The notes under the pieces are model-generated. The model saw nothing but the letters and a program-made list of their open reading frames with translations. It was not told where the DNA came from and did not search any database. From Kappaphycus alvarezii (taxonomy: Eukaryota > Rhodophyta > Florideophyceae > Gigartinales > Solieriaceae): 64,000 nt of DNA. This document shows positions 8,040-40,437 of this stretch, piece by piece. Made by a program: the position numbers and the translations under genes. The stretch is from contig NADL03000515.1 in NCBI GenBank assembly GCA_002205965.3, forward strand, positions 434,001-498,000. The letters run 5' to 3'. Position 1 is the first letter of the stretch. The number at the start of each line of letters is the position of its first letter.

Positions 8040-8965
8040 TGATAGAGGTAAATTGTCGGAAGAAGAGATACTCAGAACCAATTTCCCCAAAAAGGAGGTG
8101 TTGCAAGCGAAAAAAGTGCTACAGTGGTATAGTTGAGCGAACAAAAAGGAGTGGGTAGGGACGATAGTTGAGAGGGCTACAAGCAAATATAGAAGGGGCA
8201 GAGTCTACCACTGATGCTCTGTGACCAGCGTGGGAAAATGGTTCTTGGGTCTGAAGTTGACTCTCAACTTCCTACTACTCGGGACTTGACTTGAGGTTGT
8301 CTGCCAACTTGCTTGACCTCTCCATGAGGAAGCAGTTTACTCAGCTTATATAGACTTTTTGGCTAACATAAAAGTCTCAAACAAACATACTAAGTACTAA
8401 AAAATGCATAAATTGGAATCGTGTGAAAGAGAAAGACTAACATGAGATACTATTTGGATAAATATCTATATTTCCTCCTTAAAATCGTATTCCTCGATAT
8501 CAGAGCTAAACAATTCCTCCAAAATATCCATATCCCTAATGGAAGTCCCTACGAATCCCTTCGAACGCCCTAGAATTATGGATAGCCGCCTCGGACATAT
8601 CCAGTTCCTCCAATCCTCCTCGCAGCCTTCAAACTCCTCTTCACCCCTGTCAGGAGGGTCATTAATAATGATTACTATCTCAGTCTTCCTTCCGTTCTCC
8701 ACAGTAGCTCCTCCAACGCTGTACAATAGTAGCTCCCACTGGTCCACCCAGTCTTCCTCTCCTTCCGATCCTTCCACCTCAGCCTTAGACTCCTCCTCTT
8801 CTACCTCTTCTTCTGCCTCCTCTTCCTCTAGCTCCTCGTCTACCTCGTCTGCCTCCTCGAAGCAGTGCCGGCGGGAACACTCCCGAACGCGTTCCCGGTT
8901 CATTCTTCTATAATAATCATCATAGTCTGTCGGTACAATCGCCGTCAAGGCCAGAGCTTTGAGGA
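8040..8965 (-). mobile_element. Diverged, truncated Ty3/gypsy LTR
   Basis: From TGATAGAGGTAAATTGTCGG at 8040 the sequence aligns colinearly with the LTRs at 15346 and 22952, through the shared block CTCAACTTCCTACTACTC (8263-8280), the TATA-like CTTATATAG at 8345-8353 and the acidic ORF. Similarity fades near 8965, before the other LTR end would be reached, so this LTR has lost its 5' part (in element sense). No matching internal region or target duplication is visible. It is clearly older than the two LTRs of the complete element. Confidence 0.75.
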
Positions 8966-15345: not shown

Positions 15346-16905
15346 TGATAGGGGTAAATCGTCGGGAGAAGAGATATTCAGAATCAACCACCCCAAGAAG
15401 GAGGTGTTGCAAGCGACAAAAGTGCTACCGTGGTATAGTTGAACGAACGAAAAGGAGTGTATAGGGAAGACAGTTGAATGGGCTACAAGCAAGTATGGAA
15501 GGGGCAGGGTCTACCACCTATGCTTAGTGACTAGGGTAAAATAAATGCTTCTTGGGTCTGAAGTTGACTCTCAACTTCCTACTACTCTGGACTTGGCTTG
15601 AAGTTGTCTGCCAACTTGCTTGACCTCTCCATGAGGAAGCGGTTTACTCAGCTTATATAGACTTTTGGCTACCCCTAAAGTCCGAACAAAACTACAGAAG
15701 GTACCAGGAAATGCATACAAACAATTTGTGTGGATGATATACTCTAAACAAAAGATACTTAAGAAACTAACAATCAATGAGGTCCTCTTATTTCCCATTC
15801 TCTAAATCAGATCCAAACAACTCCTCTAAAATATCCATGCTGTCCAAGCAGTCCCCACAAATATCTGCGAATGGCTCACAGCTCTCTATTCCCTCCTGGG
15901 AGATATCTAAACTACTAAAGATATCTCCATCCGGTTCCAGCGTCGGCACCACTTGATCCATACTCTCCAGTCCAGGCCCCACCAGTAAAACACTTTCCAT
16001 GCCCCCATTTCCCTCCTCCAACTCGTCCTCGTCCTCGTCATCCTTTTCTTCCTCTCTTCTCCTCATCCTCATCCTCATCCTCCTCATCCTCCTCTTCATC
16101 CTCATCCTCATCCTCATCCTCATCCTCTCTTCATCCTCATCCTCTCCTCATCCTCCTCTTCAACCTCATCCTCCTCTTTAACCTCATCCTCTTTCCCCTG
16201 AGTCTCGTACACTAGCTCAGGGGCTAACCATTCCTCGAAGGACTCCCCGCTCTCCTCCTCGACTTTCTCAGTCTCATCCTCACTTACCTCCCTCGCCTCT
16301 TCTTCTATGAAGAGGCGGCGAACGAACTCGATGATTTTCTTCTTTGTTTGACGCCGGATGTAGTCGTCGGCATCGGTTGGCCCGTAGGCGGCGAGACGAA
16401 GGCCATTGATGGGACGGGAAGGGCGGTTTTTGGAGATAGGGACAGAGGGGCGATTTGACGTCATGTTTCTGTAAAAGGGGTGAGCGGGGTGTGTAGGGGG
16501 ACAGGAGTGCTGAGCAAAATGATCGGGAGCGTTTAAGACTTGGAATAAAGGTGTTTAAATAGGCTCCCGGGGCAGGTTCTATAGATTAGAAATAGGTAAA
16601 ATAAATCTGCAAGGGATTTTTGTAGTAGTGCATTTGCGCCCTTTGTCTCAAAAAAAAATATTTTGGAGGAGGAGGTAAGCAAAAAGGGAAAAAGAACTTA
16701 ATTCGGGATCGATTCAGAGGGGTGGATACAGTGTAAAAATATCTAGATAAAATGGAAGTAAATTTGGAGAGGACCGCGTAATGATAAGCGAGGTTCAGGG
16801 AGGACGAGGGAGGACCGGAACTATAAGCAAATTTGGACAAGGATAGGTAGTACAGTAAACTGAAGGTCTGTAGATGACGGCGACAAAAAAAATCTGCGCC
16901 TAACA
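15346..16905 (-). repeat. 3' LTR of the Ty3/gypsy element
   Basis: 1,560 bases, from TGATAGGGG to GCGCCTAACA on the plus strand. It is nearly identical to the 5' LTR at 22952-24520; I see substitutions near 15448 and 15461, a missing G near 16771, one A fewer near 16890, and rearranged codons in the acidic repeat near 16055-16160. It carries a TATA-like CTTATATAG at 15652-15660 and a frameshifted copy of the acidic ORF. Confidence 0.92.
15788..16464 (-). pseudogene. Acidic LTR-encoded ORF, frameshifted copy in the 3' LTR
   Basis: The same gene as at 23394-24077, but a net loss of 7 bases inside the acidic (GAT/GAG codon) repeat near 16055-16160 changes the frame. The N-terminal half (16120-16464) and C-terminal half (15788 to about 16050) are each intact in different frames. 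This shows that the microsatellite-like acidic tract is unstable. Function as for the intact copy. Confidence 0.8.
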
Positions 16906-16969: not shown

Positions 16970-19900
16970 CTATCCATTCATCAGGGAGAGTATAGGGTTC
17001 ACTGTAAGGATATGGTAGTAGCTCATTTCCAATATGATGAGAGAGTGTGTACCGTGCGATAACCGGCTCATCTCCTTGGTCAAGAGTTTCGTAGATTCGG
17101 CGTATGGTTTCATAGTGTTCTCTATGAGCTCCTCCCGTTTCACTTCTCCAAACCTTCCAAATGTGAGGTAGTAAACGTAGTATGCAAACTTTTCTGGCAA
17201 CGGGTCCAGAAACGGGTATCTGAAGGAGAAAAAAACTCGCAACATAAGGACTGAGTCCTCACGAGTAAGGTGCGCCCCGTGAATGGTCTGGAAGCACATG
17301 CAAATACTAATGGCAAAAAAGGAAATTACTTCTGCTTCTCGAGGGTCCTCTGTCATTTCGCGAAGCCAACGTCTAATTGGTAGTCGTCCAATAATTAAGG
17401 ATGCATAGTTTCCCCTTGGGAGACTAGGCGGTGTTTGGGGCGATCTTCTTGGCGATCTTCCTCGCTGCTCCCGACGCCTTGCCCTCTTCGATGATCCTCC
17501 TCGATCACTTGATGGTCCTGCCCGTATCATCATCACGGTCTCGGGAGGATCTTGGTCTCCAGCTGAGGTTGTGTTTCTGAGCGGAGCAACGTAAGGTTCC
17601 CATAGAGGATACGGGACCAGTCGATATTCCATATCAGGGGGCAAGCTGTAACCTCTCAGTCGCACATCTTGGTTGTTCTTGAGAAATACGTAAACTGGAC
17701 GGATAATGTTCAGATATGTTTGCGACAAGTCTCCGATAGCTACCATTCCATACCTCCCTATAGAGTAATGATATATGACTTCCACAAACTCTGGACCTGC
17801 TTCCGTGAACCTTCCGTTTTGGAATGAGAATAGAACTCTGATCAATAGTCGGAAATCTTCTTGAGGTAGCAATGGTCCGTTCAACGTACGAAAACATAGG
17901 CATATATTAATGTAGAAATGGATGATTACGTGGAGTTCGTAGTAGTCACGCGTAATCGAGATGATCCATTCCCAGGCCCTTTTTCCTCCCATAGGAATCA
18001 TTCTATAGTTAAAGATGAGTATTCCCCGTGGTTGCGCATAGTCCTGTGTGAGAAGGAATTCTTCAGGCCTCTGATGGTAAGGGACCAGACGACGTGCATG
18101 GATTGCCCTCCTTGATCTCTTCCCTGAGCTTGAACAGAGCTTATAATGCGGGTGTCTTTCCTCCGTGACGATGCAAGGGTTCGAGTACTTTGTTTGGAAA
18201 GCCGGCCACTTCACAGCCTGTTGCATTGCTTTTCCGTGTGCTACAAGTACTTTAGAGCCGACTGAGAAAGTTTGGACTGGAGGCTCTTCATCCTTATTTC
18301 TTGTCTGTGTTAGCGCGCGGTGTGATCTCCAGCTTTCGGTGGCCAGTAGTTCGACCTCTCTACTCTCTTCATCGATAACATTTGTTTCCATATCTCTCTG
18401 TAACATTCTAGGAGCTCTTCCGTACATTAGCTCAAACGGTGACCGTCCACTTCTTCCTCTTCTTCGACGATAGCCGTATAACACTTTTGGTAAGGCATCT
18501 TCCCACTGGATTTCATTCTCGGACATAGTTTTCGATATTGATCGTTTGATGGTTCCAACCATCCTCTCCGCTTTCCCGTTTGACATAGGAGCATATGCGA
18601 GAACTGTCTTTAGCTGAATACCTTTTTCTTCCAAGAAACGAAGCAGTGAAGTTGCAGTAAAACAAAGTGCGTTATCCGAGATGATCCTTTTTGGAAGACC
18701 AAACGGTTCAATTATTTCTTTTTCGATGAATCTCAGGACCACTTCAGCATTGGCCTCCTCAACTGCAACTGCTATTGGCCATCCAGTAAGATGTTCCACC
18801 CCTATAAGGAGATATTTGTTTCCGGAAGAGGTTTCCTTGAATGGGCCGGCAAAGTCAATTGAAAAGGTTTCAAAGAGACCGGAAACTGGAAAGCCTAGAG
18901 TTGTCTTATACTTTCGTATTGGCGTGAATTTTTGACAGTTGTCGCAGCTTTTCACGAAGTTATAGACGTCCTTATGGATACTGGGCCACCAGAATCTCTC
19001 AGTAACGAATTTCTTGGTTGTTTCGAGATCCCAATGCCCTAACTCATCATGAAAAGTCCTCAAGATCTTCATTCTTTCTTTCAAAGGGGCCACTAGTCGA
19101 GGACCGGCTTTCGTGTGTCGGAAGAGTTTCCCATTCCATAGTGTAAAAGCCTTTTGATTCCTGCGTACCCAATTTCTGTGTTCAATATCAACCTTTCTCA
19201 TTTCTAGTCCATCAAGGAATTTAATTAGTCCGTGAATATTAGCTTCGTACTCGTTATTGTTCGGCACTTGCACCTCGGCAACTCCGACGATGTTCTCGGA
19301 AGCTTTTTCATTTGGAATCAGTGGATCCCTCAAGCGGGATAGGTAGTCGGCAGGCTGATTATTGCGTCCGGGCCTATACACAATTTCAAACCGATATTCT
19401 GCGAAAATGTCGAGCCATCGGGCCAAGCGGTGATGTACATCTTTCTTTTGGAATGCTGTCTTAAGTGCCTGGTGATCAGTTATCAAGACAAATTTCTCGA
19501 GTGATAAAAGGTATACGCGAAACTTTTTCAGTGCGAAGACAACAGCGAGCGCTTCTTTTTCGCAGACTGAGTATCTCCTTTCCGCATCATTCAGAGTGCG
19601 ACTTGCGAATTGAACCGGGTGTAGTCTTCCGTTTTCATCTTTTTGGGACAAAACGGCACCCAAAGACCGTTCTGAGGCATCTGTCTCCACAACAAATGGT
19701 CTCTTGAAATCTGGATACATGAGCACTGGGGGACACATAGCTTATCTTTAAGCTCTTCAAATGCGGTTTGCATTTCCTTGTTCCATAAAAATTTTCCGTT
19801 CTTTGTTGTGCTGGCATGTAACGGTGCTGCAGTCTTGGCGAAATCTTTGATAAATCTCCTGTAATATGAGGCCAGTCCTAAGAAGCTTCGAACCTCCGTC

Positions 19901-20986
19901 TTTGAAGCGGGCCTTGGTGCCAACTTGATTTTTTTCGTTTTCTCTGGATCCACTTTAATTCCCTCTTGATCGACGATATGACCGAGTAATTGGATAGACG
20001 TTTTCGCAAAGAAGCATTTGCTTAACTTAATTTTCAGGCTGTACGCAGCTATTCTCTCCACCACGTCTTGACATGCGAGATGTGCTGATCCAAGGTTTTT
20101 GAGAATATACCACATCATCGATATAAACTCTTGCAAATGAAGTCCTTTCAAAACCTCGTTCATCATTCTTTGGAATGTAGCTGGGGCATTCATGAGACCA
20201 AAAGGCATCACTTCGAACCTGAATGTACCGGCTTTGCTGGTAAAAGTTGTTTTTTCCTTGCATTTTTCATCCAATGGAATCTGCCAATAACCAGTGTAAA
20301 GATCAATTGAGGTGAAGTATCTCCCGTCCTTCAAGTCCTCGAGGATTTCCTCCATATTTGGATCGGAAATCGATCGGGTATCATTCTCTGGTTCAGTTGT
20401 CGGTAATCGACGCAAAAGCGAAGTTTTCCATCCTTCTTTGGTGCTACCACAACTGGAAATGACCATGGGGATGAAACTGGCCGAATAATATCATTTTCCA
20501 GCATACTTGTAACATTTCTGAGATAAATTGGTCATATTTTGGCGGTTGACGTCTAGGCCTGTGGTAAATTGGTTTAGTATCGGTAAGTTCAAATGAGTGA
20601 GTGACCGGTACACTTGCTTGTCTTAGATCGGAAACGCTCCATGCAATTACTTCGGAAGATGTTAACATGTCGGATATTATCATTGAGGCGGGGGCTGGAA
20701 GGTGCTGTACTTTTTCTTGAATTTCTCCAATTTGGCGCTGGTCCTTTTCTTGATCCTCACCCTCCAAATTTTGAAGGACCTCTTCCGGCGTGCTCACATC
20801 TTCAGATATGGAATTCGATATATTCTTGTTTTCCGTGCAATTGTAATCTTCTTTCATGCCCCGAATTCCGTCCTTTGATTCGATATTATCGCAAAAAGAA
20901 ACACATTCAGGTGTCAAACCTACCCTAGAATTCCATTCTTCATCTGTTTCAAACCCAGAATCATAATCGTCCCATGTCATGTTCAT
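16970..20986 (-). pseudogene. Ty3/gypsy pol: RT, RNase H, integrase and a duplicated C-terminal domain
   Basis: Pol starts at 20986 with an ATGA overlap of the gag stop. Frame 20444-20986 is an acidic leader ending at PRRQPPKYDQFISEM, then RT continues in 19591-20466 (YFTSIDLYTGYWQIPLDEK, VMPFGLMNAPATFQRMMNE). The catalytic VYIDD lies in a third frame near 20110-20125, so at least three shifts occur there, and one more near 19738. The last 922 codons are uninterrupted: RNase H (ETDAS, residue 20; TDHQ, 88), integrase zinc finger (H230, H235, C265, C268), integrase core D295, D355, E391, a GPY/F-like module (about 494-555), then two related domains of about 110 residues (571-690 and 775-885) up to the LTR. 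Not functional as read, but recently so. Confidence 0.88.
17084..18028 (-). other. Duplicated unrecognised domain at the Pol C terminus
   Basis: Residues 571-690 and 775-885 of the final Pol frame align with each other: INICLCFRTLNG with ISICMCFQTIHG, RVLFSFQ with RVFFSFR, YHYSIGRYG with YYLTFGRFG, with matched spacing throughout. I count roughly one third identity. A basic, serine/proline/arginine-rich linker (about 735-775) separates them. The region lies after the integrase and directly before the 3' LTR, where some gypsy elements have a chromodomain, but no chromodomain residues are recognised. Hydrophobic and aromatic spacing suggests an all-helical globular fold. Function unknown. Confidence 0.8.
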
Positions 20987-22862
20987 TGTCCCCGAGCGTA
21001 CCCTTTCTCACTTCCGAAAGTGTTAGTTGGTTCGGAATCTTCGCTGTCATAGCTAGAAGTGAAATCTTCACTGTCCGTCTCTCTTAGATCTTCCGGATGT
21101 GTGCTTTTGTCGAAATCCAGGGGCATCTTCACGTTTCTGCCGTCAACATTAACTGAAACGATTTGGTTGCCCAAGTCAATGCAGGTCCCTAGTCTTTCCA
21201 TGGTAGGACAGCCAATGATTGCATCGAAAGGGAGCTCCGGCATGACGAGAAAGTCTACATCAACTTTAGAGTCCCCAAAGAACACGGAAACCTTGTTAAC
21301 AGTGCCCATGCATTTTGAGACGGTTCCATCCGCCACAGTTATTCTTCGAGTAGTTGGAATAATTTCGAGACCTAAATCTGTCACCAAAGTTTCTGAGATA
21401 AGGTTTGGAACAGCGCCCGAATCGAAAAGAGCTTGGGTTTTCATTCCCAATACTTTGACTGGTACTAGTTTAAGACGTCTTGGTGCTGTCGAGGCCGATT
21501 GAAGAAACAGTTTCTTACCCTTAGCGGACTTATTAGACCTGATAATTTTTTTGAGTTCTTTTCTCGCATCCTCTGCGTCGCCCCTCAAAAGTTGACCAAA
21601 CGTTATCCCAGTTGGGGCCGATGCAAGCTCAGCCACCAAATTGTACTTCTTCACATATTCTAGTACGTCCTTCGGGATACTCTTAAATTTCTTACTCTTT
21701 CTCGTCTTCTTGGCCGAAGTGTTTCCCACCCCTGGAACAACTTGATCAAGCCTCTTGGTTCGAGGAGGTACAGGTGCTGGGATATGCTCCAGCATTCCAT
21801 AATCTAGCCTAGGTTTTTTCGACAAAACGTTCCCTTCCCCATCCCTTTTTGTCACATTAACTTGACTGATTTCTTCAGCGATGGATACATTACCGGCATC
21901 CGCCAACCTTTGATCCTTCCTGTTTTGTAAGATTTTCATCTCTGGTCCTGACTCACTCCTCGCGTCCGATAAATTTGCTCTTCTGTTGTCTTTAGACCAG
22001 CAGTTACTTTCATGATGCCCGTAACGACCGCACTTTCCACAACGAGTGTTTCTATGTGGATTATCAGGACACCTATTTGCAAAGTGTCCAGGCTTGTGAC
22101 AGTAGGAACAGACTTCTGCGGCCTTGGGGGCCCCAGACTGGTTCTTCTTAATGGTAAGAGTAAGGCTTTCCAACTGCGAGGTTATCATGTCAAGTCGATT
22201 ATCGAATCGGGTTTCCAACCTTTCTTCCAAGTTTTTGACATCGCTCCTGACTGATTCCAATGCTGCTGCGCTAGTAGCTGGCCTTTGATAATTCTTTTCA
22301 GGATGCACGATCGGCATAGATGTACGGGTTTCCCTCGGTATTTCACTTAGTGACTGAAACGTCTCCGAATTTTTGACAAATTCTACTATGGTACCCTTCA
22401 GTTCATTAAAAGTGTGAGGGCCCTTGATGAGGAGGAAATCGGAGAGCCGCTTATCCCCATCGCCGCCTTACGCAGCATTCCGTACTTGGCTTGGGCGTTG
22501 AACCCAGCCTTTTCATAGAGATCACACAAGTATACCAATGAGCTTAACAAATCGTCGAAGTTGAGCCGGGCCTCTATGGCGGTACGAATCATCTCATCTG
22601 GTTCTACCTGCTTAGCATATTCTTTCACAAGCCACTCACATACCTCACCGAAGTTACGCCCATTCCCGTTAAGAGACCACCCGTTGATAAACTTGGCCTT
22701 ATATTTGTGCTTTGCGTCACCATGAAGATAGGCGAAGATACTTTCGGCCTTCTCTTCATCGCTCTTCTCACGCATCACAACGTTGACATATGTATAGAGA
22801 AACTCCTCAACGTCTTCATTCTTGCCCCCTGTGAACGTTATACGAGCAGCGTTGAGATCCAT
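20983..22862 (-). pseudogene. Ty3/gypsy Gag-protease, copy A (frameshifted)
   Basis: Starts at ATG 22862, 89 bases after the 5' LTR. A C4 run at 22455-22458 (C5 in copy B) breaks the frame, giving separate stretches 22398-22862 and 20983-22317. The joined reading has a helical gag domain (about residues 1-180), a predicted coiled coil (about 200-240), two CCHC zinc knuckles (C252-C265 and C275-C288), a basic region (380-450), and a retropepsin with FDSGA (480-484) and the IIGCP-LG motif near the end. Role: virus-like particle and polyprotein processing. The stop TGA overlaps the pol ATG (ATGA). Confidence 0.88.
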
Positions 22863-22931
22863 GATTACAGAAAAGAAATCCCCTCGAATGGTTCCCTAAG
22901 ACTGCTCAACTCGAATACCTCGGGTGCAACC

Positions 22932-22949
22932 CCCTCCACAAGAGTACCA
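22932..22949 (-). promoter_or_regulatory. Candidate primer binding site
   Basis: In element sense TGGTACTCTTGTGGAGGG begins two bases after the end of the 5' LTR. The TGG start pairs with the CCA end of a tRNA. I cannot say which tRNA; it is not the common initiator-Met site. Confidence 0.55.
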
Positions 22950-23257
22950 AATGATAGGGGTAAATCGTCGGGAGAAGAGATATTCAGAATCAACCACCCC
23001 AAGAAGGAGGTGTTGCAAGCGACAAAAGTGCTACCGTGGTATAGTTGAACGAAAGAAAAGGAGTGGATAGGGAAGACAGTTGAATGGGCTACAAGCAAGT
23101 ATGGAAGGGGCAGGGTCTACCACCTATGCTTAGTGACTAGGGTAAAATAAATGCTTCTTGGGTCTGAAGTTGACTCTCAACTTCCTACTACTCTGGACTT
23201 GGCTTGAAGTTGTCTGCCAACTTGCTTGACCTCTCCATGAGGAAGCGGTTTACTCAG

Positions 23258-23266
23258 CTTATATAG
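23258..23266 (-). promoter_or_regulatory. TATA-like box downstream of the LTR ORF
   Basis: CTATATAAG in element sense, about 130 bases after the end of the acidic ORF and about 306 bases before the LTR end. It is conserved at 15652, 39175 and, despite divergence, at 8345. It is the best candidate promoter for the gag-pol genomic RNA. Confidence 0.5.
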
Positions 23267-23393
23267 ACTTTTGGCTACCCCTAAAGTCCGAACAAAACTA
23301 CAGAAGGTACCAGGAAATGCATACAAACAATTTGTGTGGATGATATACTCTAAACAAAAGATACTTAAGAAACTAACAATCAATGAGGTCCTC

Positions 23394-24077
23394 TTATTTC
23401 CCATTCTCTAAATCAGATCCAAACAACTCCTCTAAAATATCCATGCTGTCCAAGCAGTCCCCACAAATATCTGCGAATGGCTCACAGCTCTCTATTCCCT
23501 CCTGGGAGATATCTAAACTACTAAAGATATCTCCATCCGGTTCCAGCGTCGGCACCACTTGATCCATACTCTCCAGTCCAGGCCCCACCAGTAAAACACT
23601 TTCCATGCCCCCATTTCCCTCCTCCAACTCGTCCTCGTCCTCGTCATCCTTTTCTTCCTCCTCTTCATCTTCATCCTCATCCTCATCCTCATCCTCATCC
23701 TCCTCTTCATCCTCATCCTCATCCTCATCCTCATCCTCCTCTTCATCCTCATCCTCATCCTCATCCTCCTCTTCAACCTCATCCTCCTCTTTAACCTCAT
23801 CCTCTTTCCCCTGAGTCTCGTACACTAGCTCAGGGGCTAACCATTCCTCGAAGGACTCCCCGCTCTCCTCCTCGACTTTCTCAGTCTCATCCTCACTTAC
23901 CTCCCTCGCCTCTTCTTCTATGAAGAGGCGGCGAACGAACTCGATGATTTTCTTCTTTGTTTGACGCCGGATGTAGTCGTCGGCATCGGTTGGCCCGTAG
24001 GCGGCGAGACGAAGGCCATTGATGGGACGGGAAGGGCGGTTTTTGGAGATAGGGACAGAGGGGCGATTTGACGTCAT
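23394..24077 (-). CDS. Acidic protein encoded within the LTR
   Basis: A 227-codon ORF lying wholly inside the LTR, in the same sense as gag-pol. Order: a basic N terminus with GLRLAAYGPTDADDYIRR (21-38) and a KKK helix, a Glu/Asp tract at about 98-151 coded by GAT/GAG repeats, then a less repetitive C-terminal third with DSMDILEELFGSDLENGK at the end. No known domain. A TATTTAAA box lies about 90 bases upstream of the ATG. Both conserved ends recur in the diverged LTR at 8040-8965, so this is not a chance frame. Possible roles are a transactivator of the LTR or a histone- or integration-related acidic factor; both are inference. The opposite-strand poly-serine frame is a shadow. Confidence 0.75.
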   Translation of the reverse strand: MTSNRPSVPISKNRPSRPINGLRLAAYGPTDADDYIRRQTKKKIIEFVRRLFIEEEAREVSEDETEKVEEESGESFEEWLAPELVYETQGKEDEVKEEDEVEEEDEDEDEDEEEDEDEDEDEDEEEDEDEDEDEDEDEEEEEKDDEDEDELEEGNGGMESVLLVGPGLESMDQVVPTLEPDGDIFSSLDISQEGIESCEPFADICGDCLDSMDILEELFGSDLENGK

Positions 24078-24166
24078 GTTTCTGTAAAAGGGGTGAGCGG
24101 GGTGTGTAGGGGGACAGGAGTGCTGAGCAAAATGATCGGGAGCGTTTAAGACTTGGAATAAAGGTG

Positions 24167-24174
24167 TTTAAATA
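24167..24174 (-). promoter_or_regulatory. TATA-like box upstream of the LTR ORF
   Basis: TATTTAAA in element sense, 90 bases before the ATG of the acidic ORF and about 350 bases into the LTR. Also present at the same place in the other complete LTRs. Confidence 0.45.
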
Positions 24175-24520
24175 GGCTCCCGGGGCAGGTTCTATAGATT
24201 AGAAATAGGTAAAATAAATCTGCAAGGGATTTTTGTAGTAGTGCATTTGCGCCCTTTGTCTCAAAAAAAAATATTTTGGAGGAGGAGGTAAGCAAAAAGG
24301 GAAAAAGAACTTAATTCGGGATCGATTCAGAGGGGTGGATACAGTGTAAAAATATCTAGATAAAATGGAAGTAAATTTGGAGAGGACCGCGGTAATGATA
24401 AGCGAGGTTCAGGGAGGACGAGGGAGGACCGGAACTATAAGCAAATTTGGACAAGGATAGGTAGTACAGTAAACTGAAGGTCTGTAGATGACGGCGACAA
24501 AAAAAAATCTGCGCCTAACA

Positions 24521-25586
24521 GGGCCTCGGCATTCTTCTCGCTTCGTCAATCCCTGAGTCCGCTTATGCGGCTTCGATGATTGATGTTTTCCGCCGTTTCT
24601 CAGATCTGCTCTCCTTCTCGGGAGACCTACACCTGGAGGAAGTGCCTCGGGCCGCGATTTCTTTATTATCTACCCGTTATCCAGACCTTTCGGCTTCCGT
24701 GTCGCCCACTTCCCTGTTTCAGAGGTGTCAAACGCCGGTCCCAGACGAACGGCTCCAGTCTGCTATCTCGTCTGAGCTTCACAGTTCGACGTTTGATCGG
24801 ATCTTCCGATCATCCTCTGACCGCGACAGATCTCGCCTCCTATCTGTCCGTGAGTCGTCCGCCTGTTCAGCTTTCTCTACTTTACCGCACCCTCACCGCG
24901 GCACCTATCTGTCCTCGCAAGCTTGGATAGTCGCTGTATCTCTACGCCTCGGCCGCGCGATTTTCTCTGGTTATGATCGATGTCCGGTATGTGCTCGCCG
25001 TTCCAACGACATCGCCCCGGTGCTCGATCCCCTGGGCAAACATGCCCTCACCTGTAAGTACAACGATGGGCAGACTCGTCGCCACAATGTCTTGCGTAAC
25101 GCTCTCCATCGCTACTGTAAGGAGCTTGGAATTTCTGCCTCTCTTGAACATCTGCTTCCTCCCCTTCCCCCTTCGTCCTCTTCCTCGTCCGCCCTTCGCA
25201 TAGATCTTTATATCCCTGCTGCATATGGCCTCGACCCGAAGGATATTGCTTTGGATGTCACAGTGGCCCATCCACAGGTCACTTCTCGCGTTTCCCAGTG
25301 TGCCCTATCTGGCGGCGCAGCTGCCTCAATGGCTGAACGTGCGAAACACACGCACTACGGTCTAGTCTGCCACACGAACGATATACGGCTTCTTCCTGTT
25401 GGTATTGATGTGTTCGGTGCCCTTGGGGCCGACGGTGCGACTTTCTTCCGGCGCCTTTCTACGTTCGCTGCTGCCCGTCGAGGCACCACTCCCCAATGGG
25501 AGCTGCACCTCCTAATCACGCGCTTTGTGTTCTGCTTGCATGGGTTACAAGCTCGTCAAATTCTTACCAGATGCATTTCCGATTAG
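24521..25586 (+). pseudogene. Non-LTR ORF2, 3' part: thumb, CCHC and RLE-like endonuclease
   Basis: Continues ORF2 after the gypsy insertion: LGILLASSIPESAYAASM leads in frame into the 336-codon stretch from 24576. In that numbering a zinc finger reads CPVC (136-139) with H156 and C160. It is followed by RRHNVLRNALHRY, then RIDLYIP (D210), ALDVTVAHP (D227) and AERAKHTHY (K257, Y261). A CCHC finger followed by D...D-x-T...K and an aromatic residue resembles the restriction-like endonuclease at the C terminus of R2/CRE-type elements, which nicks the target. The domain call is by motif only. It ends at a normal stop. Confidence 0.72.
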
Positions 25587-25808
25587 TTTCTCTCTCATCC
25601 CCCTATGCATGTTAATTTCTCTGTAATCCCCCTCAGCATGTTCTCCCACATGCTCTTTCCACATCCCGTAAAGATTACACACATGTTTCCCTTTGAATTT
25701 AGCAGGCAAATTTTTGACGAATAAAATGTCTATGCCCGAAACACCCTGCTCAGACAGCACGGTGGTACCTCTTGGGACTCAAATGAGTGGACAAGGACAC
25801 AACTTATT
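25587..25808. other. 3' flank of the non-LTR element up to the Harbinger insertion
   Basis: This probably holds the 3' untranslated region of the non-LTR element. I see no poly(A) tail or simple 3' repeat that would mark its end, and no gene. Confidence 0.4.
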
Positions 25809-25884
25809 GAGTGCATTCAGAAATTAGACAAATGGATAAATTGACAGATCTGACCAATAAGATTACAGAATTTACAATATCTCA

Positions 25885-27231
25885 GTGACAAATTTTGTCA
25901 ATTTGTTGGGGCTGCAGGGGGGCAGAACAAATCGACAAACATTTGTCGATGAGTGTAGGCCAAAGGTATTTTCGGTATACTTGCTCATGGTACATCGTCG
26001 CCTTGTTATCTGTGCTGCCGTATCGGCAGCAATAGCAACTGCTATCGCCATCAGACTACGACAAAAAAAGGCCACACGGATCTCTGCGCGTATTGTTCGA
26101 AAACGGCAACCAAGATATTTACGAGTTGCGTTGATCCGTCCGATTTCGTCTCAATCCACCACAGCATGGAGACAGCTTTTGTCGTGCGGGACTTCATCTG
26201 ACTTCATAGTGTCCCTTAACTTTGACCGTCATTCTTTATTCACTGTCCTACTACCTTTATTTCAAAGCAAGCGCCAAACGGTCAACTACGGCAGCCCGTA
26301 CATACGCGGAACAAAACTGAGTGGGCGTCGGGCGACTATAGCCACAGAAGATCTCCTTGGTCTTGTTCTCTGGTACTTGAAATCTTGTTGCCGGCAGTAT
26401 GCCCTGTGTCCGATATTTGGTTTGGTACCAACGTCTCTAAACGTTTGGGTAGACTATGGGTTAGAAGTTCTCTTACGCGTCTGCTGCGATACAAATGATA
26501 CTGTCTTGCATGTTAGATGGCCTAATTGGCATGAGATGAAGGAGTCTGCGGAACTTTTGGAATGCAATAGACCGAATGGACCGATTTTAAGAAACGTTTT
26601 CGGTATTGTTGATGGAGGCAGGATGCCTGGTGCAGACTTTATTGATAAAAACACGCATAATGCTTACTACGAGGGATACACTGCAAGCGTTGAGGTCACT
26701 AACCTGTTTGTGTTTAACTTCAAAGGAGAAATCATACATGCAGGCGTTAACTATCCAGGTTCATGGCATGACAGTAAGCTGGCGGCACTATCCGGGCTTA
26801 TCTGCCGTAAGCTAGGCGATGAAATGACTCCGCCTGTGTTTGCTGTATTAGGTGATAGTGCATTCCTGGTGGATAGTCGTATTGCAAATGGAAAGATTGT
26901 GCGTGCCAGAAAAACCAACGAAACAGCAGGAATTCCGGAAAGCATTGAAATGGCGGCGATCGATCTGGTGATGCAGAGGGTTTTGCCAAGTGAAAGGCAG
27001 TCTGCCGAGTGGGGGTTGAGAGCCGTTAAAGCCCTTTTCTGAAGATGCCGACTTGCTCTGTCTGCTGATAGTAGTAGAAGAAAGCGACTGTTGACCGTTT
27101 TTGTGTGCCTTTTCAATGCGGGAACGAGGTTGGTTGGGCTCAATTACATAACAACGACGTATGCAAACCCTGGAAGAGATACTAAACCTTGGGTACAGCG
27201 GTTTGTAGAAGAGCAGAATGAAGTTTCTTAG
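25885..27231 (+). pseudogene. Harbinger DDE transposase, copy A (late in-frame TGA)
   Basis: A 385-codon frame from 25885 to a TGA at 27040-27042, after which the same frame stays open and homologous in character (NAGTRLVGLNYITTTYANPG) for 62 more codons to TAG at 27229. The catalytic triad is in place: FGIVDGG (D243), LGDSAF (D324), RQSAEWG (E375); YYEGYTASVEVTN and PGSWHDS are typical DDE_Tnp_4 signatures. The first 34 residues are uncertain because a later Met at 35 could be the start. It would cut and join DNA at the terminal repeats with help from the Myb partner. The late stop probably removes a needed C-terminal helix. Confidence 0.85.
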
Positions 27232-27282
27232 GCATAAGTTAGTATCGTCCGAATAAAAAGACGTTTAATGATGTGAGATGGC

Positions 27283-27387
27283 GGCGCTCCTGGTTCGCCC
27301 GCACGACGTGCGGGCGAACGAGAAGCGCCGGAAAAAGTCCGCTGGTGACCCGAGCGAAGCGAGGGCGCGCGCAGCGCGCCAGCGGAC
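27283..27387. terminator. Two strong hairpins between convergent Harbinger genes, copy A
   Basis: Hairpin 1: GTTCGCCCGCAC (27293-27304) pairs perfectly with 27308-27319 across a 3-base loop, extended by GGCGCT/AGCGCC. Hairpin 2: GTCCGCTG (27337-27344) pairs with 27380-27387, and contains GGCGCGC/GCGCGCC and GAGCGAAGCGAG inside. The region is far GC-richer than its surroundings and lies between two convergent coding ends, so a role in 3'-end formation is possible. Function not shown. Confidence 0.45.
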
Positions 27388-27408
27388 CGCAGGTAGCACG
27401 CGCAGAAT

Positions 27409-28431
27409 CTAAAGCTTTTTGACGATCAGTTCTTTCATTTCCTTTAACGTCTCGTTCAAAATACCTAGCTCAGATTGCATTTCTTTCTCAACAATATCTG
27501 TTACATCCTCCTTCGTAAGCGCAGTGACATCACATGAGGGTGTGGAGCTATCCACAAGTTTCTGTATCGCACAGGAGATGTCACCAACGTGTTCAATCAA
27601 TTCATCGTCTACTTCGTCACGCGCAATACCTGTCGCCCCTGCCCTCCGTTTCCCTCGACGAGCGCCAAGCGGCACACCATCCGCCCGCCGCTTTTTTCGC
27701 AACGATACATGCCCCAAAGACGCAGCGGAGGATCCGTTTTCGCCATCCATCGCATCCACGCTGGCCGACTCATCTAGAGGTTCGTCCACGTCGCCAACCG
27801 AGACGGCATTGACCTTGCCAAGTATATCCCTCGCAATATGCTTTGCTCGTCGTACATGCGGTGGACACGATGGGTCTCCAGTAGGTTTCTTGACATAAAC
27901 CAGCTTGTCAAATTTCATCCGGAGTGAGTCAGAGTCTCTTGAAGGCCGTTGCTCCATTTCAGTTTACTCAAGGAAACGAGTGGCAACAGCAGCCCAATCA
28001 TTTCCCCCAATTGGCTCCAGCTCCTCAACGATATCTCGTAGTTTGTCAACGTCTGCTTCACTGTAGTTGGGCGATCCACTTCGTTTCCGTTTCTTCGTGC
28101 TTGATGGTTTTGAGACGGAGCCTTGTTGTGGCGTTGCAGACGTCAGTTCTACAACGGAAGCGGGGGTGTGATAAGGGTTGGAGACATTGTTTGTAAGCTT
28201 TTCATCTGTACCGTTTTCATTGCCAACCATAGTTGCAGTAGCCATAATACCTTCAGTGTTGTTGGCGAGGGTGTAATCGGGGGCAGAAATGGTTTGAGTA
28301 CACTTTGATACGGCTTCGAGAGAAGACATGACACAGGAAATGGTTGAGATGTGGATCAGGTAGAAAGCCTTGACGACACTTACGGCTTCATAGTAACCGA
28401 GGTTGCACGCAATATTGGTAAACGTGTACAA
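27409..28431 (-). pseudogene. Harbinger Myb/SANT DNA-binding protein, copy A (one in-frame TAA)
   Basis: Two frames, 27964-28431 (155 codons) and 27409-27957 (182 codons), are in the same phase and separated by a single TAA (27964-27966). The Myb/SANT-like region spans the stop: NYSEADVDKLRDIVEELEPI and GGNDWAAVATRFLE before it, RPSRDSDSLRMKFDKL and KKPTGDPSCPPHVRRAKHI after it. This matches the Harbinger accessory protein that binds the terminal repeats and carries the transposase to the nucleus. The rest has a basic cluster (LRKKRRA, ARRGKRRAG) and a C-terminal helix that may be a coiled coil. Glutamine is the likely original residue at the stop (CAA to TAA). Confidence 0.8.
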
Positions 28432-28533
28432 ATGTTTATCAATTTATCAAATTGTTGCGTTGATTTCTGATGCACTAAAAATTCTGGACAATTCTGGAAT
28501 TGCAAATCTATCCAATTTCTGAATGCACTCATT

Positions 28534-30311
28534 GCTCTAGAGATATGGCCGCGATCCCCGTACAGAACTGTACAGTACAGTAGAAAGTTTTCATCAAATG
28601 GTTTCTACGAGTGCTGTAATATCTACACAGAGTTAAGCGGGGGCAATAGAGGATAGATTTCAAGGCTTGGGCTGTGCAGATTAATTCTACAGTGGGAATG
28701 TCCAGAAAAGAGGCAGGTTCAACTCGGTTAAGATCCTAGGGGTCTATTTGCGGATCAAATAGGGTCTGGATCGATAGTATCGAACCTGTTAAATAAGAGA
28801 GGCAGAAAGTGTAAATAAAGTGTAAAAGGAGAGGGGCGGAAAAAGGGTATGAAAGGAGACACCAACCTCAAGAAAGTAAAAAATAAAGGGGGGCAGAAAG
28901 TAAAAAGAAAATAAAATAAAGAATAAACAAGTTGGAATGTTTGAAGGGAGCGTGACGCCGAAAGTACAAGTAGGATTGCACCGCACCGTCTGAAGTCACG
29001 CCATAGCTGCTGGCACCTAGACACAAGTGCCAGACGGAAGCACATCACATTGCTGTACAAAGAAGTGGTGCACCGCTGCATCCGTACCCACACTATTGAA
29101 GCAAGAGACGTATAGGAGCTGTGAAGTTGGTGAGAAGTCCATTGGTCCTGATCGAAGGGCTGCCTTCGACTCGCAACCTTCACAGAACATAATGTGAAAG
29201 TACCAGAGTCTACTAACAAAGCGCTCTGTCTCAGGTTAAGAGACCGGTTTCTTCTTTTCAGGGACAATTGATGGGTATTTTTGTAGCACATGATTTACAA
29301 CGCAGTCATCAGATATTCGACTTTGTCATACCAGTAACACAGGTTCTGCAAAAAAATGAAGTATAAGGTATGCATGTAGAATTTGTTCAGAATAGTATAA
29401 ATCAGTGATTACTGTCCACAGAAAAGTTAAAAACAATAAGATTACTCAGCCGTGCCATGTGAAAAAATTTTTGAGGTACAAAATGGCTATTTTTTGTACC
29501 TTACAACATGGCAAAGGCAGAAAAAGGCCCTTTCCCGCCAAAAGGGGCGGAATTCCGTCCGTTCTGAACGGCTATGTTTTTGAACAGTTGCTATGAAGTT
29601 CTGGATGATTATTGTTTGTTGCTGATCCACGACTTCTCAAGATATAAACTACATTTACCGCAGTGGTATTACTACTAAAAATTACTTATTGTAAATGTAT
29701 TCGAGTGATTGGGACATGAGTGACTCAAAAGATATGTAACCGTTAGAACAAACCAGTTTGACTTGAAATACGAAACAGAACTAGTCACAAAACTGTAATG
29801 GTACGAGAGTTCGGAATGATTTTCGATAACCTAAATAGTTAATTAATAGGAGATATGTCCAGAAAAGGTGAGTCAAGGGGTTATCCAGCATGATTGGCTG
29901 GACTTTATATTAAATTTACCAACAAAAAGTCATTGAACGTAAGAAGTGGAGATAAGAAGTACCAGCCAGTGACAGTAAATGCTCAACATCATTAAATAAT
30001 CTAGGTAGAGTCAATAACATCTCAAAGAGCAGTACTTTTGGGCCAAAAACAAGTTCATGGCATCATTTCACTTTTGCACTGGACGTCAGTGCCTCAAATT
30101 TCAACGGGTATATTGGAAGAATGCGCAAATCATGTATATGGAATTAAAGGATCTGATCTAAATGGGGAAGGAAATTTAACGGCCAAACAAGTGAGAATGT
30201 AAGCACTTGGTTCATGTGGGAACATAGGAAAGGTGCTTAAGACGATGGTTATCGAGTTTTCCGACATTGGGAGACTGTAAATTGCTATTTGCATTAAAAC
30301 AGAAGCACTAA
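28534..30311. other. AT-rich stretch, no assignable gene, copy A
   Basis: A 178-codon minus-strand frame at 28755-29291 is dominated by low-complexity Phe/Leu codons antisense to an A-rich tract and is not called. GTAC-type palindromes lie at 28560-28582. A hairpin AGGTACAAAA/TTTTTTGTACCT is at about 29472-29500. The left end of the Ulp1-bearing element probably lies here but I cannot place it. Confidence 0.35.
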
Positions 30312-31212
30312 TTGGGTAACAAAAAATTCCACACTATGGTGGATGCATTAACTTCAAATGTTATGCGTATAACGAACCAATCTAGGGTAAATGACCGGAT
30401 GAACAACATCGAAGTCGACAATTTACCAATTTTTATCGATCTTCCAGTTTCGAGGAAACATAATTGGGAATATTTGGAACTGGAAAATATGCAACGATCG
30501 ATAAGATCGCCCATTATGCCTCCAAATAAAAAAATGATGAACAAAATGTATGAAGGCAGAAAAGTTACGAAGTCGACGCGATCGTATCGTGTCAGTGGAA
30601 CCTAATGGAGAACGTGTGGAACTGGGACAGACACAAGGACTGATAAGACTGTCGACTGAACCAAGAGTTGGAGTTGCACATGTGAATAACCAGCCTCAAA
30701 CCGAAGAAGTACTTCGAACAAGCCCAAATAACCCAGTTCACCACATTTCTGACGATGTGGTAGCTCGCAGTCAGTCTCTTCTGCGAGATGCATGAGGTAT
30801 TTCGGCACACTCAAGAATGATGGTATACTATGATACTGAAGCTTTGAGTGTTACTCTTTTTGCTGAGATTGTTACACAACTCTTTAAGAGATACAAAAGC
30901 AGTAGGGTGGAGTCCGGTAGTAAGGTACATGGCTTACAAAATAGAAGTCTTGTTCCAAGTCGACTGAGACACAAGACTGTCTCCATTTCAAATATTGTTA
31001 TGAGGAGAACTGAGTCGAGACCTTAGGAAGACATAGGGAGACGTCACTGTGTTATGAAGATCGGAAAACCAAGTAGAAATCCAAATAAAGTACATATCGC
31101 TTTGATCCTTTCTCTTCTAGAGAGCGATCCTGCTGGGATAAAAGTGGAAGAACTATTAAGAGAGTATGTTGAAGGCATATGGACCAATGAAGTGCGCATA
31201 TCTGAAACGTGA
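30312..31212 (+). pseudogene. Unrecognised decayed gene 1 of the Ulp1-bearing element, copy A
   Basis: Codon structure persists over 900 bases. One frame runs 30312-30605. A second continues from 30550 through a TGA (30793) and a TAG (31024) and stays open to about 31212, giving segments such as ARSQSLLRDA, AEIVTQLFKRYKSSRVES and NKVHIALILSLLESDPAG. Two internal stops in about 220 codons is far below chance for noncoding DNA, so this is a decayed gene. Charged and helical; no domain recognised. In copy B an extra T near 46244 changes the start of the first frame. Confidence 0.4.
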
Positions 31213-31269
31213 GGACTACACTTCCCGAGTTAGCCCACGGGACACTAGTGTCTTGAAGAAATGAAATGG

Positions 31270-31817
31270 AGAATTGCTGGTAAAAGTAACTGTTGATCCA
31301 TTTCTAACAACCATCATGGGCGACGAAATACAAAACGGATAAATCACAGTATTGTTCAAGTCATTAGAGAAGGAAGCAAGTAGTTTTTGTTCGACTAACT
31401 CTCAAAAACCTACTGACAAGACCAGTTGCCCTACCCAAGCAATGGTTTTCTTGCGTCAATCTGAAACGGGAGAATGGTGTCATTCTAGGTTCGGCTATAC
31501 TTGTGGAGGGCAAGGTTTTCCGTTCTCTACAGACACCTTCGCGACCACTTCCCATGAATATTTGCGACTGCAGCCTACTTTGTGATTTCAAAAGTACTTA
31601 CAAGCAGGACCAAAGTGACCTAGAAGATGTTTGGAAACTTGAGTATCCTGTATCTGAATGGTATAATCACAAGATTACATCAAAGTACAAGAAGATTCAT
31701 TTCAACGGAGGAGTGCCAAAGTATATCTCAGAACTTAAACAGCAACAGCATTCTTCTGGCATTTCGAACATATTTTACAGATCTCTGTCAATTTATAAGC
31801 GTCCCTTACATCTGTGA
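31270..31817 (+). pseudogene. Unrecognised decayed gene 2 of the Ulp1-bearing element, copy A
   Basis: Two overlapping frames look coding. About 31278-31585 reads ELLVKVTVDPFLTTIMGDEI, an in-frame TAA, then ITVLFKSLEKEASSFC. Frame 31503-31817 reads DLEDVWKLEYPVSEWYNHKI and the adjoining TSKYKKIHFNGGVPKYISEL. They may be parts of one gene with a frame change near 31510. No family recognised. Confidence 0.3.
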
Positions 31818-32172
31818 CATGGAAACCAATAAGAGCGGGTGACCAAAATATGTTACAATAGAATAGAGAGTCCCAGGTACATAGTGTAGCATTGTGAATT
31901 TGGAATTTGAAATGTGCGTAGTGCCATAATGAAGAAATGGGAAGTTCTCCGACATCATAAAGTGGAAGGTAAGTAGTCAGATGATATATACTCTCTATCT
32001 TCCTATAAATTACACTACAAAACAGCTAACTTGAGTAGATCAAGTTGAGAAATAGCCATGATCGATCACTCAGAGTCACAATAGATGGTGAGGACTGTAA
32101 TTTCCCAAGCTTTATAAGCACAATATGCTCACCTGAGGAACCCCCGCGAGTAGAAGATGCAGGAGCAAGAAG

Positions 32173-33637: not shown

Positions 33638-34962
33638 ACAAACATATCAACTCATTTACCCATTGTGTTTTCGATCATGACACATATACCTTGAACCTTA
33701 CATTGTTTCTCTTTTCGAATCCCAACGATCGTAACACACACCGGAACACTGACAAAGTCATTAACAGAGCAAAGAACAGCGAGCTGATGTACGATGTAGT
33801 TGAATGAAACAGGTTGCAAGACGACAAGCCTCAGGCTAGAGGGGCCCTGTCTGGAGGACTTATGTCGTGTACTTCGATACGGTATGTGAGGGGGCGGATA
33901 ATTTGGCAGAATAAGTGACTAGTCTCTAATGTCCTGACCGCAATGAATAGGAGGAGCGACGGGTAAACATAGTGTTGACATTGCAGTTCAAAATTTCGTA
34001 ATAGCTGACAATGCAAGTTTAGATTCTTTTTGAATTCCAATATTGATTGAATAAATTAACCCAAACGTAAGAATTATGATAAGTTATGTTTTTACAATAA
34101 CTTCAGTAGAGACTATTAGTAATGATTGGTTATTTTCAAAGTTTCAGTAACGTTTTGGAATTTTGAATTCTGTTACCCGACCGAGGTGCCTTTGCGCGAA
34201 GTCCAAAATACACCGCGTAAGCGTTATCAATTCTCGCCATTACTGAAGATTTCAATAACCAGCACTTGAAACCAAAAAGTAATCGGCCCACTTCGGCACA
34301 AATCGACTTCAAACTTTATGTTTTACAGGCATCAGAGGGAATACTAAACATATACAATCCATGATGACAATTTTCTGGCCTCTAACACACCTCAAAATAA
34401 ATTTTTATGTTCACCTAATGGCTCATACAGCAGTACTTAGTTTCAATAAATCGTTGTTCCTGGCGTCTTTCACCATTCCGTCTCCGCATCTATCAACACC
34501 ATCTACCGTCGTCAACATACCTTCATCACAACACCACAAATTGATCTAAAACCTGAAAATACCAATATTGGATCTCTCTCTACTAAAAAGAGGACCCTCG
34601 TGTCCATGTTTCGACTCTACGTCATAAGGCCTCCCCACAACCCGAATCATATAAAGTATTTCCGAATAAAATAACCGCTACTGAAGGTGAGACACGTGTG
34701 CCTCGTTCCTCTTCACATCTTACTCGTAGCCTGCCGTCCATGTTCATTTCCCAATATATCGATCCACCACTGTATTTAGGACATTCATGTCACGTGGCCG
34801 GTGTTTTCAAAAATGCAACTTAGGATCAATTGGCGTCAAAGTAGGTTACGACATCTCAACATTTCTGAAAGGCAATTCAGCGGAACAGATAGTGAAAGAG
34901 AATCCGATGAAAACTCAGAGACGTCCGAAAGCTCCCAATAAGTAGCCATCGATGTTTATTGC
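33638..34962. other. AT-rich spacer with a short acidic ORF
   Basis: Mostly noncoding in appearance. A short frame near 34814-34942 (ending GTDSERESDENSETSESSQ) is acidic and lies just before the Ulp1 gene. It may be its N-terminal part or an upstream exon. Confidence 0.3.
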
Positions 34963-38779: not shown

Positions 38780-38868
38780 GATTACAGAAAAGAAATCCCC
38801 TCGAATGGTTCCCTAAGACTGCTCAACTCGAATACCTCGGGTGCAACCCCCTCCACAAGAGTACCAAA

Positions 38869-40437
38869 TGATAGGGGTAAATCGTCGGGAGAAGAGATAT
38901 TCAGAATCAACCACCCCAAGAAGGAGGTGTTGCAAGCGACAAAAGTGCTACCGTGGTATAGTTGAACGAAAGAAAAGGAGTGGATAGGGAAGACAGTTGA
39001 ATGGGCTACAAGCAAGTATGGAAGGGGCAGGGTCTACCACCTATGCTTAGTGACTAGGGTAAAATAAATGCTTCTTGGGTCTGAAGTTGACTCTCAACTT
39101 CCTACTACTCTGGACTTGGCTTGAAGTTGTCTGCCAACTTGCTTGACCTCTCCATGAGGAAGCGGTTTACTCAGCTTATATAGACTTTTGGCTACCCCTA
39201 AAGTCCGAACAAAACTACAGAAGGTACCAGGAAATGCATACAAACAATTTGTGTGGATGATATACTCTAAACAAAAGATACTTAAGAAACTAACAATCAA
39301 TGAGGTCCTCTTATTTCCCATTCTCTAAATCAGATCCAAACAACTCCTCTAAAATATCCATGCTGTCCAAGCAGTCCCCACAAATATCTGCGAATGGCTC
39401 ACAGCTCTCTATTCCCTCCTGGGAGATATCTAAACTACTAAAGATATCTCCATCCGGTTCCAGCGTCGGCACCACTTGATCCATACTCTCCAGTCCAGGC
39501 CCCACCAGTAAAACACTTTCCATGCCCCCATTTCCCTCCTCCAACTCGTCCTCGTCCTCGTCATCCTTTTCTTCCTCCTCTTCATCTTCATCCTCATCCT
39601 CATCCTCATCCTCATCCTCCTCTTCATCCTCATCCTCATCCTCATCCTCATCCTCCTCTTCATCCTCATCCTCATCCTCATCCTCCTCTTCAACCTCATC
39701 CTCCTCTTTAACCTCATCCTCTTTCCCCTGAGTCTCGTACACTAGCTCAGGGGCTAACCATTCCTCGAAGGACTCCCCGCTCTCCTCCTCGACTTTCTCA
39801 GTCTCATCCTCACTTACCTCCCTCGCCTCTTCTTCTATGAAGAGGCGGCGAACGAACTCGATGATTTTCTTCTTTGTTTGACGCCGGATGTAGTCGTCGG
39901 CATCGGTTGGCCCGTAGGCGGCGAGACGAAGGCCATTGATGGGACGGGAAGGGCGGTTTTTGGAGATAGGGACAGAGGGGCGATTTGACGTCATGTTTCT
40001 GTAAAAGGGGTGAGCGGGGTGTGTAGGGGGACAGGAGTGCTGAGCAAAATGATCGGGAGCGTTTAAGACTTGGAATAAAGGTGTTTAAATAGGCTCCCGG
40101 GGCAGGTTCTATAGATTAGAAATAGGTAAAATAAATCTGCAAGGGATTTTTGTAGTAGTGCATTTGCGCCCTTTGTCTCAAAAAAAAATATTTTGGAGGA
40201 GGAGGTAAGCAAAAAGGGAAAAAGAACTTAATTCGGGATCGATTCAGAGGGGTGGATACAGTGTAAAAATATCTAGATAAAATGGAAGTAAATTTGGAGA
40301 GGACCGCGGTAATGATAAGCGAGGTTCAGGGAGGACGAGGGAGGACCGGAACTATAAGCAAATTTGGACAAGGATAGGTAGTACAGTAAACTGAAGGTCT
40401 GTAGATGACGGCGACAAAAAAAAATCTGCGCCTAACA
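38869..40437 (-). repeat. Gypsy LTR, copy B
   Basis: A 1,569-base LTR identical by eye to 22952-24520. It is followed by an undamaged GGGGC target duplication (40438-40442), which shows that the GGGC at 24521 lost one G. It precedes the chimeric Gag ORF in element sense. Confidence 0.9.
39311..39994 (-). CDS. Acidic LTR-encoded protein, copy B
   Basis: Identical in translation to 23394-24077: 227 codons, N-terminal PTDADDYIRR, acidic tract at 98-151, C-terminal MDILEELFGSDLENGK. It has the same upstream TATTTAAA and downstream CTATATAAG (39183-39175) boxes. See the copy A entry for interpretation. Confidence 0.75.
   Translation of the reverse strand: MTSNRPSVPISKNRPSRPINGLRLAAYGPTDADDYIRRQTKKKIIEFVRRLFIEEEAREVSEDETEKVEEESGESFEEWLAPELVYETQGKEDEVKEEDEVEEEDEDEDEDEEEDEDEDEDEDEEEDEDEDEDEDEDEEEEEKDDEDEDELEEGNGGMESVLLVGPGLESMDQVVPTLEPDGDIFSSLDISQEGIESCEPFADICGDCLDSMDILEELFGSDLENGK

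Follow-up and report, generated by a model that had tools for sequence, protein, structure and literature searches.

An open reading frame inside a Ty3/gypsy LTR

The window (the whole 64,000-nucleotide stretch of Kappaphycus alvarezii DNA analysed here) carries on its minus strand a Ty3/gypsy retrotransposon whose 5' long terminal repeat (LTR) contains a 227-codon open reading frame (ORF). The features discussed below are:

8040..8965, minus strand: diverged LTR remnant with an ORF of an older family (ORF part about 8466-8965)
15346..16905, minus strand: 3' LTR; its own ORF (L003) is frame-shifted in the acidic tract
16970..22862, minus strand: gag-pol region, five ORFs in this copy, with protease, reverse transcriptase (RT), RNase H and integrase matches
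22952..24520, minus strand: 5' LTR containing the ORF (TGTTAGG...CTATCA), 1,569 bp, Ty3/gypsy
22952..23257, minus strand: R-U5, downstream of TATATAAG; the diverged LTR has R-U5 too
23258..23265, minus strand: TATATAAG box, putative main promoter, 3' of the ORF
23394..24077, minus strand: LTR-encoded ORF, 227 codons, 227 aa
23397..23615, minus strand: C block, the last 73 codons, ending in MDILEELFGSDLENGK
23619..23807, minus strand: acidic Glu/Asp tract, a six-base tandem repeat in which other copies often lose the frame
23817..24077, minus strand: N block, codons 1-87, the part with demonstrated purifying selection
23919..23987, minus strand: predicted helix, residues 31-53, basic and hydrophobic
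24078..24166, minus strand: ORF leader, diverged among lineages along with the N block
24167..24174, minus strand: TATTTAAA box, proposed ORF promoter; its 24-base context recurs exactly in 1,077 places
38869..40437, minus strand: LTR copy in a 15.9-kb tandem duplicate, with an intact ORF (39311-39994)

The 5' and 3' LTRs of the element are identical at 1553 of 1560 aligned bases. LTR termini are TG...CA, and 5-bp target-site repeats flank the solo copies L006, L025, L036 and L043. Pfam matches between the LTR pair to Ty3-type protease, RT, RNase H and integrase assign the host element to Ty3/gypsy, and the ORF spanning RNase H and integrase has Ty3 Gag-Pol as its best PDB match (E 1.1e-40). 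An earlier, sequence-only reading of this DNA had placed a 227-codon ORF within a 1.57-kb LTR, on the same strand as gag-pol; the coordinates, the LTR pair and the Pfam matches all agree. Because it lies inside the LTR, the ORF is present twice per full-length element.

Along the element in its sense direction, the LTR start is followed by conserved U3, TATTTAAA, leader, ORF, TATATAAG, R-U5, LTR end and primer-binding site (PBS). The ORF appears to be located in U3, since it lies upstream of the likely genomic promoter TATATAAG and of R-U5; judged from sequence, it would sit between its own promoter and the genomic one. In 10 listed copies the TATTTAAA box precedes the ATG by 97-119 nt. By eye, R (23150-23260) contains short inverted repeats (AAGTTG...CAACTTC) that are kept in the diverged LTR; they might fold into hairpins close to where the genomic RNA begins.

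In the diverged LTR at 8040-8965, the TATATAAG box is still present and R-U5 is 86% identical. The sequence-only reading credited this LTR with an open frame that has both conserved ends of the ORF, and it does have an open frame with PTDYDDYYRR and MDILEELF-SD, but the ORF's share of that frame is smaller than the frame itself. The N-terminal ~93 residues of this 264-aa frame (8466-9260) are similar to a different repeat, listed at dozens of places, so only ~8466-8965 belongs to the ORF. The matches of 8970-9260 to this other repeat are at 60-75% identity, one of them within an open frame of 911 aa, and a Pfam search of this part of ORF 8466-9260 gave no match.

Copy number and integrity of the reading frame

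A DNA search for the LTR yielded 4,852 candidates, of which the best 40 were scored and 30 were cut out and examined, including the window's two tandem copies and its 3' LTR. The whole ORF is open in 16 of these 30 top-scoring copies. The N block is intact in 28 of 30 and the C block in 24 of 30 (identity above 0.95), although one of the 28 counted as intact (L005, which is L044 in the protein search) has a stop inside the N block. A protein search for the ORF gave at least 182 matches (150 scored of 11,334 candidates). By hand count, 118 of the 182 matches listed are approximately full-length and 100 of the 118 have no stop; ranking by score favours intact copies in this list, and a stop-free match may hide a shifted stretch (L082).

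Pattern searches of the whole genome found the N-terminal motif, in any codons, at 2,359 places, the exact 49-base tail at 1,156, the exact 24-mer of the ORF promoter at 1,077 and the LTR-PBS junction at 1,653, each against a control count of 0. Such numbers, more than a thousand copies in the genome against none for the controls, argue that the ORF is more than a chance frame. When 47 promoter 24-mers were taken as an unsorted sample, 38 had the N motif ~200-220 nt downstream, 31 had the exact tail and 28 had both.

The unsorted sample, taken in contig order, also bears on the frame. It includes 36 copies in which both the N motif and an exact tail lie within range; the two are in one frame in 10 of these 36 and out of frame in the other 26 (remainders 13, 13 and 10), so that a full-length protein is impossible from most copies as assembled. 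The expectation that most LTR copies would be open in frame thus failed in this sample, with assembly error as a possible cause. Of the 28 acidic tracts that could be measured in the 30 top LTR copies, 19 have a length divisible by three.

Assembly error is a plausible source of the out-of-frame state of most sampled copies, because slippage in a six-base repeat should preserve the frame, and because one mismatch and five gap openings separate the 15.9-kb tandem copies; real loss may also contribute. The gag gene is a single 639-codon ORF in one tandem copy and is split in the other. The duplication itself (21213-37132 and 37129-53049, 99.96% identical) is either very recent or an assembly artefact, because one of its ends falls inside the gag-pol region of the element.

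Purifying selection on the N-terminal block

For tests of selection we assembled 59 open coding sequences from L001-L080 (40 distinct) and added L081-L090, giving 50 distinct sequences in total; many loci are common to the DNA and protein searches, and the set comprises copies with an unbroken frame and a recognised start and motif. Six observed representatives were compared with the acidic tract excluded (NG86). Over the 87 codons of the N block, 11 of the 15 pairs are distant, with omega of 0.10-0.23 and dS of 0.99-2.24. Lineages A and B, for example, have dS 1.85, dN 0.22 and omega 0.12, and omega is 0.13 for A-D, 0.11 for B-C, 0.14 for B-D and 0.20 for A-E. The four close pairs gave omega of 0.37-0.88 (A-C 0.51).

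Maximum likelihood (ML) gave the same picture for the N block, with omega of 0.09-0.15 for A-D, B-D, B-C and A-E, where the comparison with omega 1 yields a 2dlnL of 32-53. A-B had an unbounded dS and a 2dlnL of 60; for A-C, omega was 0.36 with a 2dlnL of only 3.4. In the two shifted frames (ML, stop codons skipped), omega rose to 1.5-7.4 for five distant pairs, and A-C gave 0.94 and 4.24.

We compared fixed differences between lineages with within-lineage variants, which number 20 synonymous and 46 non-synonymous (20S/46N). Fixed A-B differences (40S/34N) differ from this ratio (Fisher p 0.006), as do fixed B-D differences (31S/28N, p 0.017); fixed A-D differences (35S/45N) do not do so significantly (p 0.12), and A-C has 1S/6N. 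Inserted copies therefore seem to decay near-neutrally while the replicating lineages retain the protein. The prediction that dN/dS would fall below 1 once acidic repeats were excluded was borne out between distant lineages in the N block. A ratio near 1 across copies, which the sequence-only reading had named as evidence against a gene, does occur within lineages, as expected after insertion, whereas distant lineages are far below it.

These results bear on the possibility that there is no gene, and that a Glu/Asp-coding microsatellite holds a chance frame open in a young, near-identical LTR family. The tract is indeed a simple repeat that is stop-free in this frame, lineage A copies are nearly identical and many copies are frame-shifted. 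With the tract excluded, however, distant lineages approach saturation at synonymous sites and still conserve the protein, a pattern confined to this frame. As omega is far below 1 between distant lineages in the ORF's frame alone, the dN/dS test with its frame controls rejects a chance open frame, and we regard that explanation as highly improbable. The ORF is probably a functional accessory gene of the element, its N-terminal domain having been maintained as a protein for a long time.

Demonstrated purifying selection is limited to the N block. Fixed differences in the C block number only 2S/4N; comparisons of this block with lineages C and C3 give an NG86 omega of 0.38-0.55 from a small number of changes, and the C-C3 pair gives 0.73. 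The claim of a real element gene is thus strongly supported for the N-terminal part and does not extend to selection on the C block. This pattern would suit an N domain that is the only working part, 87 codons long and serving for instance as a Gag partner or integration factor, with the acidic tract and C block as a variable tail; many copies would then yield the N domain followed by a tail that is cut short or out of frame. In the unsorted sample the motif-tail spacing is indeed spread across all three frames. Several observations speak for a longer product. An in-frame acidic stretch follows the N block in aligned copies of both ORF families, the older one using other codons, and the tail motif recurs in the diverged LTR. 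The 16 fully open copies among the top 30 and the 19 of 28 tracts in multiples of three point the same way, and frame losses may be assembly errors. We consider an N domain working alone quite improbable.

The second, older ORF family includes L096 and the diverged LTR of the window, and has at least 153 matches (150 candidates scored). Over 38 codons, L091 and L096 differ with pS 0.59 and pN 0.07, and this one pair adds support for a real element gene; the other nine pairs of P0002, L091, L094, L095 and L096 range from 0.32 to 1.99; L092 and L093 were left out of this test, and pairs with more decayed copies are weaker. Acidity is maintained in this family by different codons. The older ORF type is also joined to the same backbone, since the L096 ORF lies ~650 bases upstream of an LTR-PBS junction (C57).

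Exchange of N-terminal cassettes and siblings that seem to lack the gene

Comparison of one LTR copy each from lineages A, B and D gave a mosaic. From the LTR start to the TATTTAAA box the three are 96-98% identical, the C block is identical at 221-222 of 222 bases, and R-U5 at 98-100%; between these, the leader falls to 67-72% and the N block to 66-75% identity. The change starts ~ten bases past the TATTTAAA box and stops in the acidic tract. Sequence 3' of the LTR also aligns closely: over 952 bases the window's element matches one B copy at 98.95% identity, over ~355 bases three B copies at 99.4% and over 359 bases the D copy at 99.7%. Old, divergent cassettes on a backbone that is 96-100% identical among A, B and D show that the leader and N-terminal module have been swapped, and the simplest account of these alignments is that elements recently exchanged an old module. 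A role of the ORF's own mRNA as template for this exchange is conjecture. A GGTAAGT in the lineage A ORF was considered as a splice donor and rejected, being absent from B and D.

We also looked at elements that share the 5' internal region. The best 40 matches to this region are all 100% identical; at least two of them, C739 and C846, have a listed lineage-A LTR at the other end. Two others were sampled for their absence from the best-scored ORF matches, which is no proof that the gene is missing: C725, with 746 bases before the contig ends, and C136, with 1.2 kb that does not adjoin gag. Their U3 sequences are unrelated to the ORF-bearing U3, and R-U5 at C725 is 87% identical. Neither U3 holds a comparable acidic ORF, the longest stop-free stretch in sense being 136 codons.

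A broader sample consisted of the 55 among 100 listed LTR-PBS junctions that are covered by the N-motif places. The exact tail and/or the N motif lies within range at 19 of these 55 same-PBS junctions, and neither does at the other 36. On this count the gene seems dispensable in cis, although some of the 36 may be degraded and not gene-less.

Predicted properties of the protein

The structure model of the full-length protein is poor (pLDDT 48.9), with a helix at residues 31-53 and a short helix at 212-219. When the N block was modelled alone, the same helix at 31-53 was predicted, with a mean pLDDT of 82-86 over residues 31-50, although this model too is of low confidence as a whole. Net charge is +5 in the N-terminal 30 residues, reaches -30 in the middle and is -8 in the last 30 residues, which include 9 large hydrophobic residues. 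Models and charges together point to a strongly acidic product that is largely unstructured, with a basic helix near the N-terminus and a short hydrophobic and acidic one at the C-terminus.

The sequence-only reading had called for a remote-homology search, and a remote homologue of known function was not found in Pfam, PDB, phage records or IMG/VR. Pfam searches with whole ORFs (E up to 10) gave only matches below the cut-off, mostly over the acidic tract, the best being BUD22 (E 4e-4, in L077); the N and C blocks searched apart gave one weak match, DUF1360 (E 0.06). PDB profiles returned acidic-tract matches (best E 0.012) or matches at E 1.8, tblastn against phage records reached E 0.4 at best, and in one IMG/VR scan 0 of 44 pattern stretches were confirmed as relatives.

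A proposed regulatory role

While the gene itself is well supported, its function is something that we infer. We favour, at what we judge to be even chances, an accessory gene encoded in U3 and driven by its own promoter, whose product would be an acidic nuclear regulator, probably a trans-activator with a logic like that of foamy virus Tas. The ORF would be expressed from the TATTTAAA promoter, separately from a gag-pol RNA starting at the downstream TATATAAG, both promoters being proposed from their sequence. Its product would be a mostly disordered, acidic nuclear protein whose predicted basic N-terminal helix binds DNA, chromatin or a partner protein, and whose acidic and hydrophobic C-terminal part recruits the transcription machinery. 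The element would thereby boost transcription from its own LTRs, and might act in trans on related LTRs that lack the gene.

The main rival to a trans-activator accepts a real LTR gene and makes the product an anti-silencing or chromatin-binding factor, acidic in the manner of a histone chaperone, that opens host chromatin or blocks silencers. Both ORF families have a long Glu/Asp-rich tract, and a family of over a thousand copies would have to evade silencing. Older-family copies (L091-L096) carry VIVISDSSD-like stretches after the acidic region, which we take to resemble a SUMO-interaction motif. The window's own ORF, however, is without this stretch, acidity by itself is not diagnostic, and Pfam and PDB gave no homology to known chaperones or anti-silencing proteins. 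We consider a chromatin factor rather unlikely.

The trans-activator proposal can be extended to the mosaic described above, in a form that we hold to be rather doubtful as a whole. LTRs of this family would carry an optional, self-promoted trans-activator with interchangeable N cassettes, recently moved onto one backbone and acting in trans on siblings. Old cassettes (dS ~1-2) would have entered the segment from the TATTTAAA box to the acidic repeat, perhaps when reverse transcription switched template to co-packaged ORF mRNA. The targets in trans would be siblings that share the primer-binding site and gag and have an unrelated, gene-less U3.

Comparison with other accessory genes

As the portions of PMC12548423 that treat it describe, sag of mouse mammary tumour virus (MMTV) encodes a superantigen in sense within the LTR/U3 and has a conserved and a highly variable part. 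Our ORF resembles sag in its frame within the inferred U3, its sense orientation and its combination of a conserved with a variable part. It differs in that its exchanged part is the N-terminal half and that of sag the C-terminus, and in apparently having its own promoter immediately upstream in U3; in a red algal host, moreover, a superantigen role would make no sense. Pfam includes a sag family, and Pfam-A scans at E up to 10 (Pfam profiles only) matched no retroviral accessory family.

Tas (Bel1) of foamy viruses, in the account drawn on from PMC3185757, is a regulatory gene whose promoter is distinct from the one in the LTR that makes genomic RNA. The regulatory logic that we propose for the ORF, with a putative separate promoter, is the same. 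The Tas promoter is internal, within env, whereas the ORF and its proposed promoter are inside the LTR; and Tas binds specific DNA sequences, whereas the ORF product offers a predicted basic helix and an acidic composition. Pfam-A scans matched no such family, and one IMG/VR scan confirmed no relative.

Additional ORFs (aORFs) of plant LTR retrotransposons, such as maize Grande gene23, rice RIRE2 and Silene Retand, are extra conserved genes beyond gag-pol; in the passages of PMC7264820 that concern them, they occupy the internal region, in most cases the stretch from pol to the 3' LTR, and can be sense or antisense, and Grande gene23 has a nuclear product and its own promoter. The ORF is likewise an extra conserved gene beyond gag-pol; unlike the plant aORFs it lies inside the LTR, in sense, and outside the internal region that defines their location.

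Genes wholly inside LTRs are, to our knowledge, known chiefly from a few animal retroviruses, and the literature that we searched held no LTR-internal gene in a gypsy element. The locus would combine an LTR-encoded accessory gene, with no known protein relatives in the libraries searched, and what looks like an optional, modular LTR setting. Three matches to phycobilisome families above the cut-off point to a red algal host genome. A selected LTR gene in a red algal Ty3/gypsy element would mean capture of a regulatory gene in U3 far from vertebrates. The mosaic, with one backbone, several ancient N cassettes and seemingly gene-less siblings, offers a natural experiment on whether such a regulator acts in cis or in trans, and informs how retroelements swap modules.

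Other elements in the window

Directly next to the 3' LTR, at 14263-15348, a plus-strand ORF matches reverse transcriptase (RVT_1) and apparently belongs to another retroelement. The duplicated unit also contains matches to a DDE_Tnp_4 transposase (25885-27042), DUF6818 (27409-27957) and a Ulp1-type protease (Peptidase_C48, 35296-35766), which are perhaps parts of DNA transposons.
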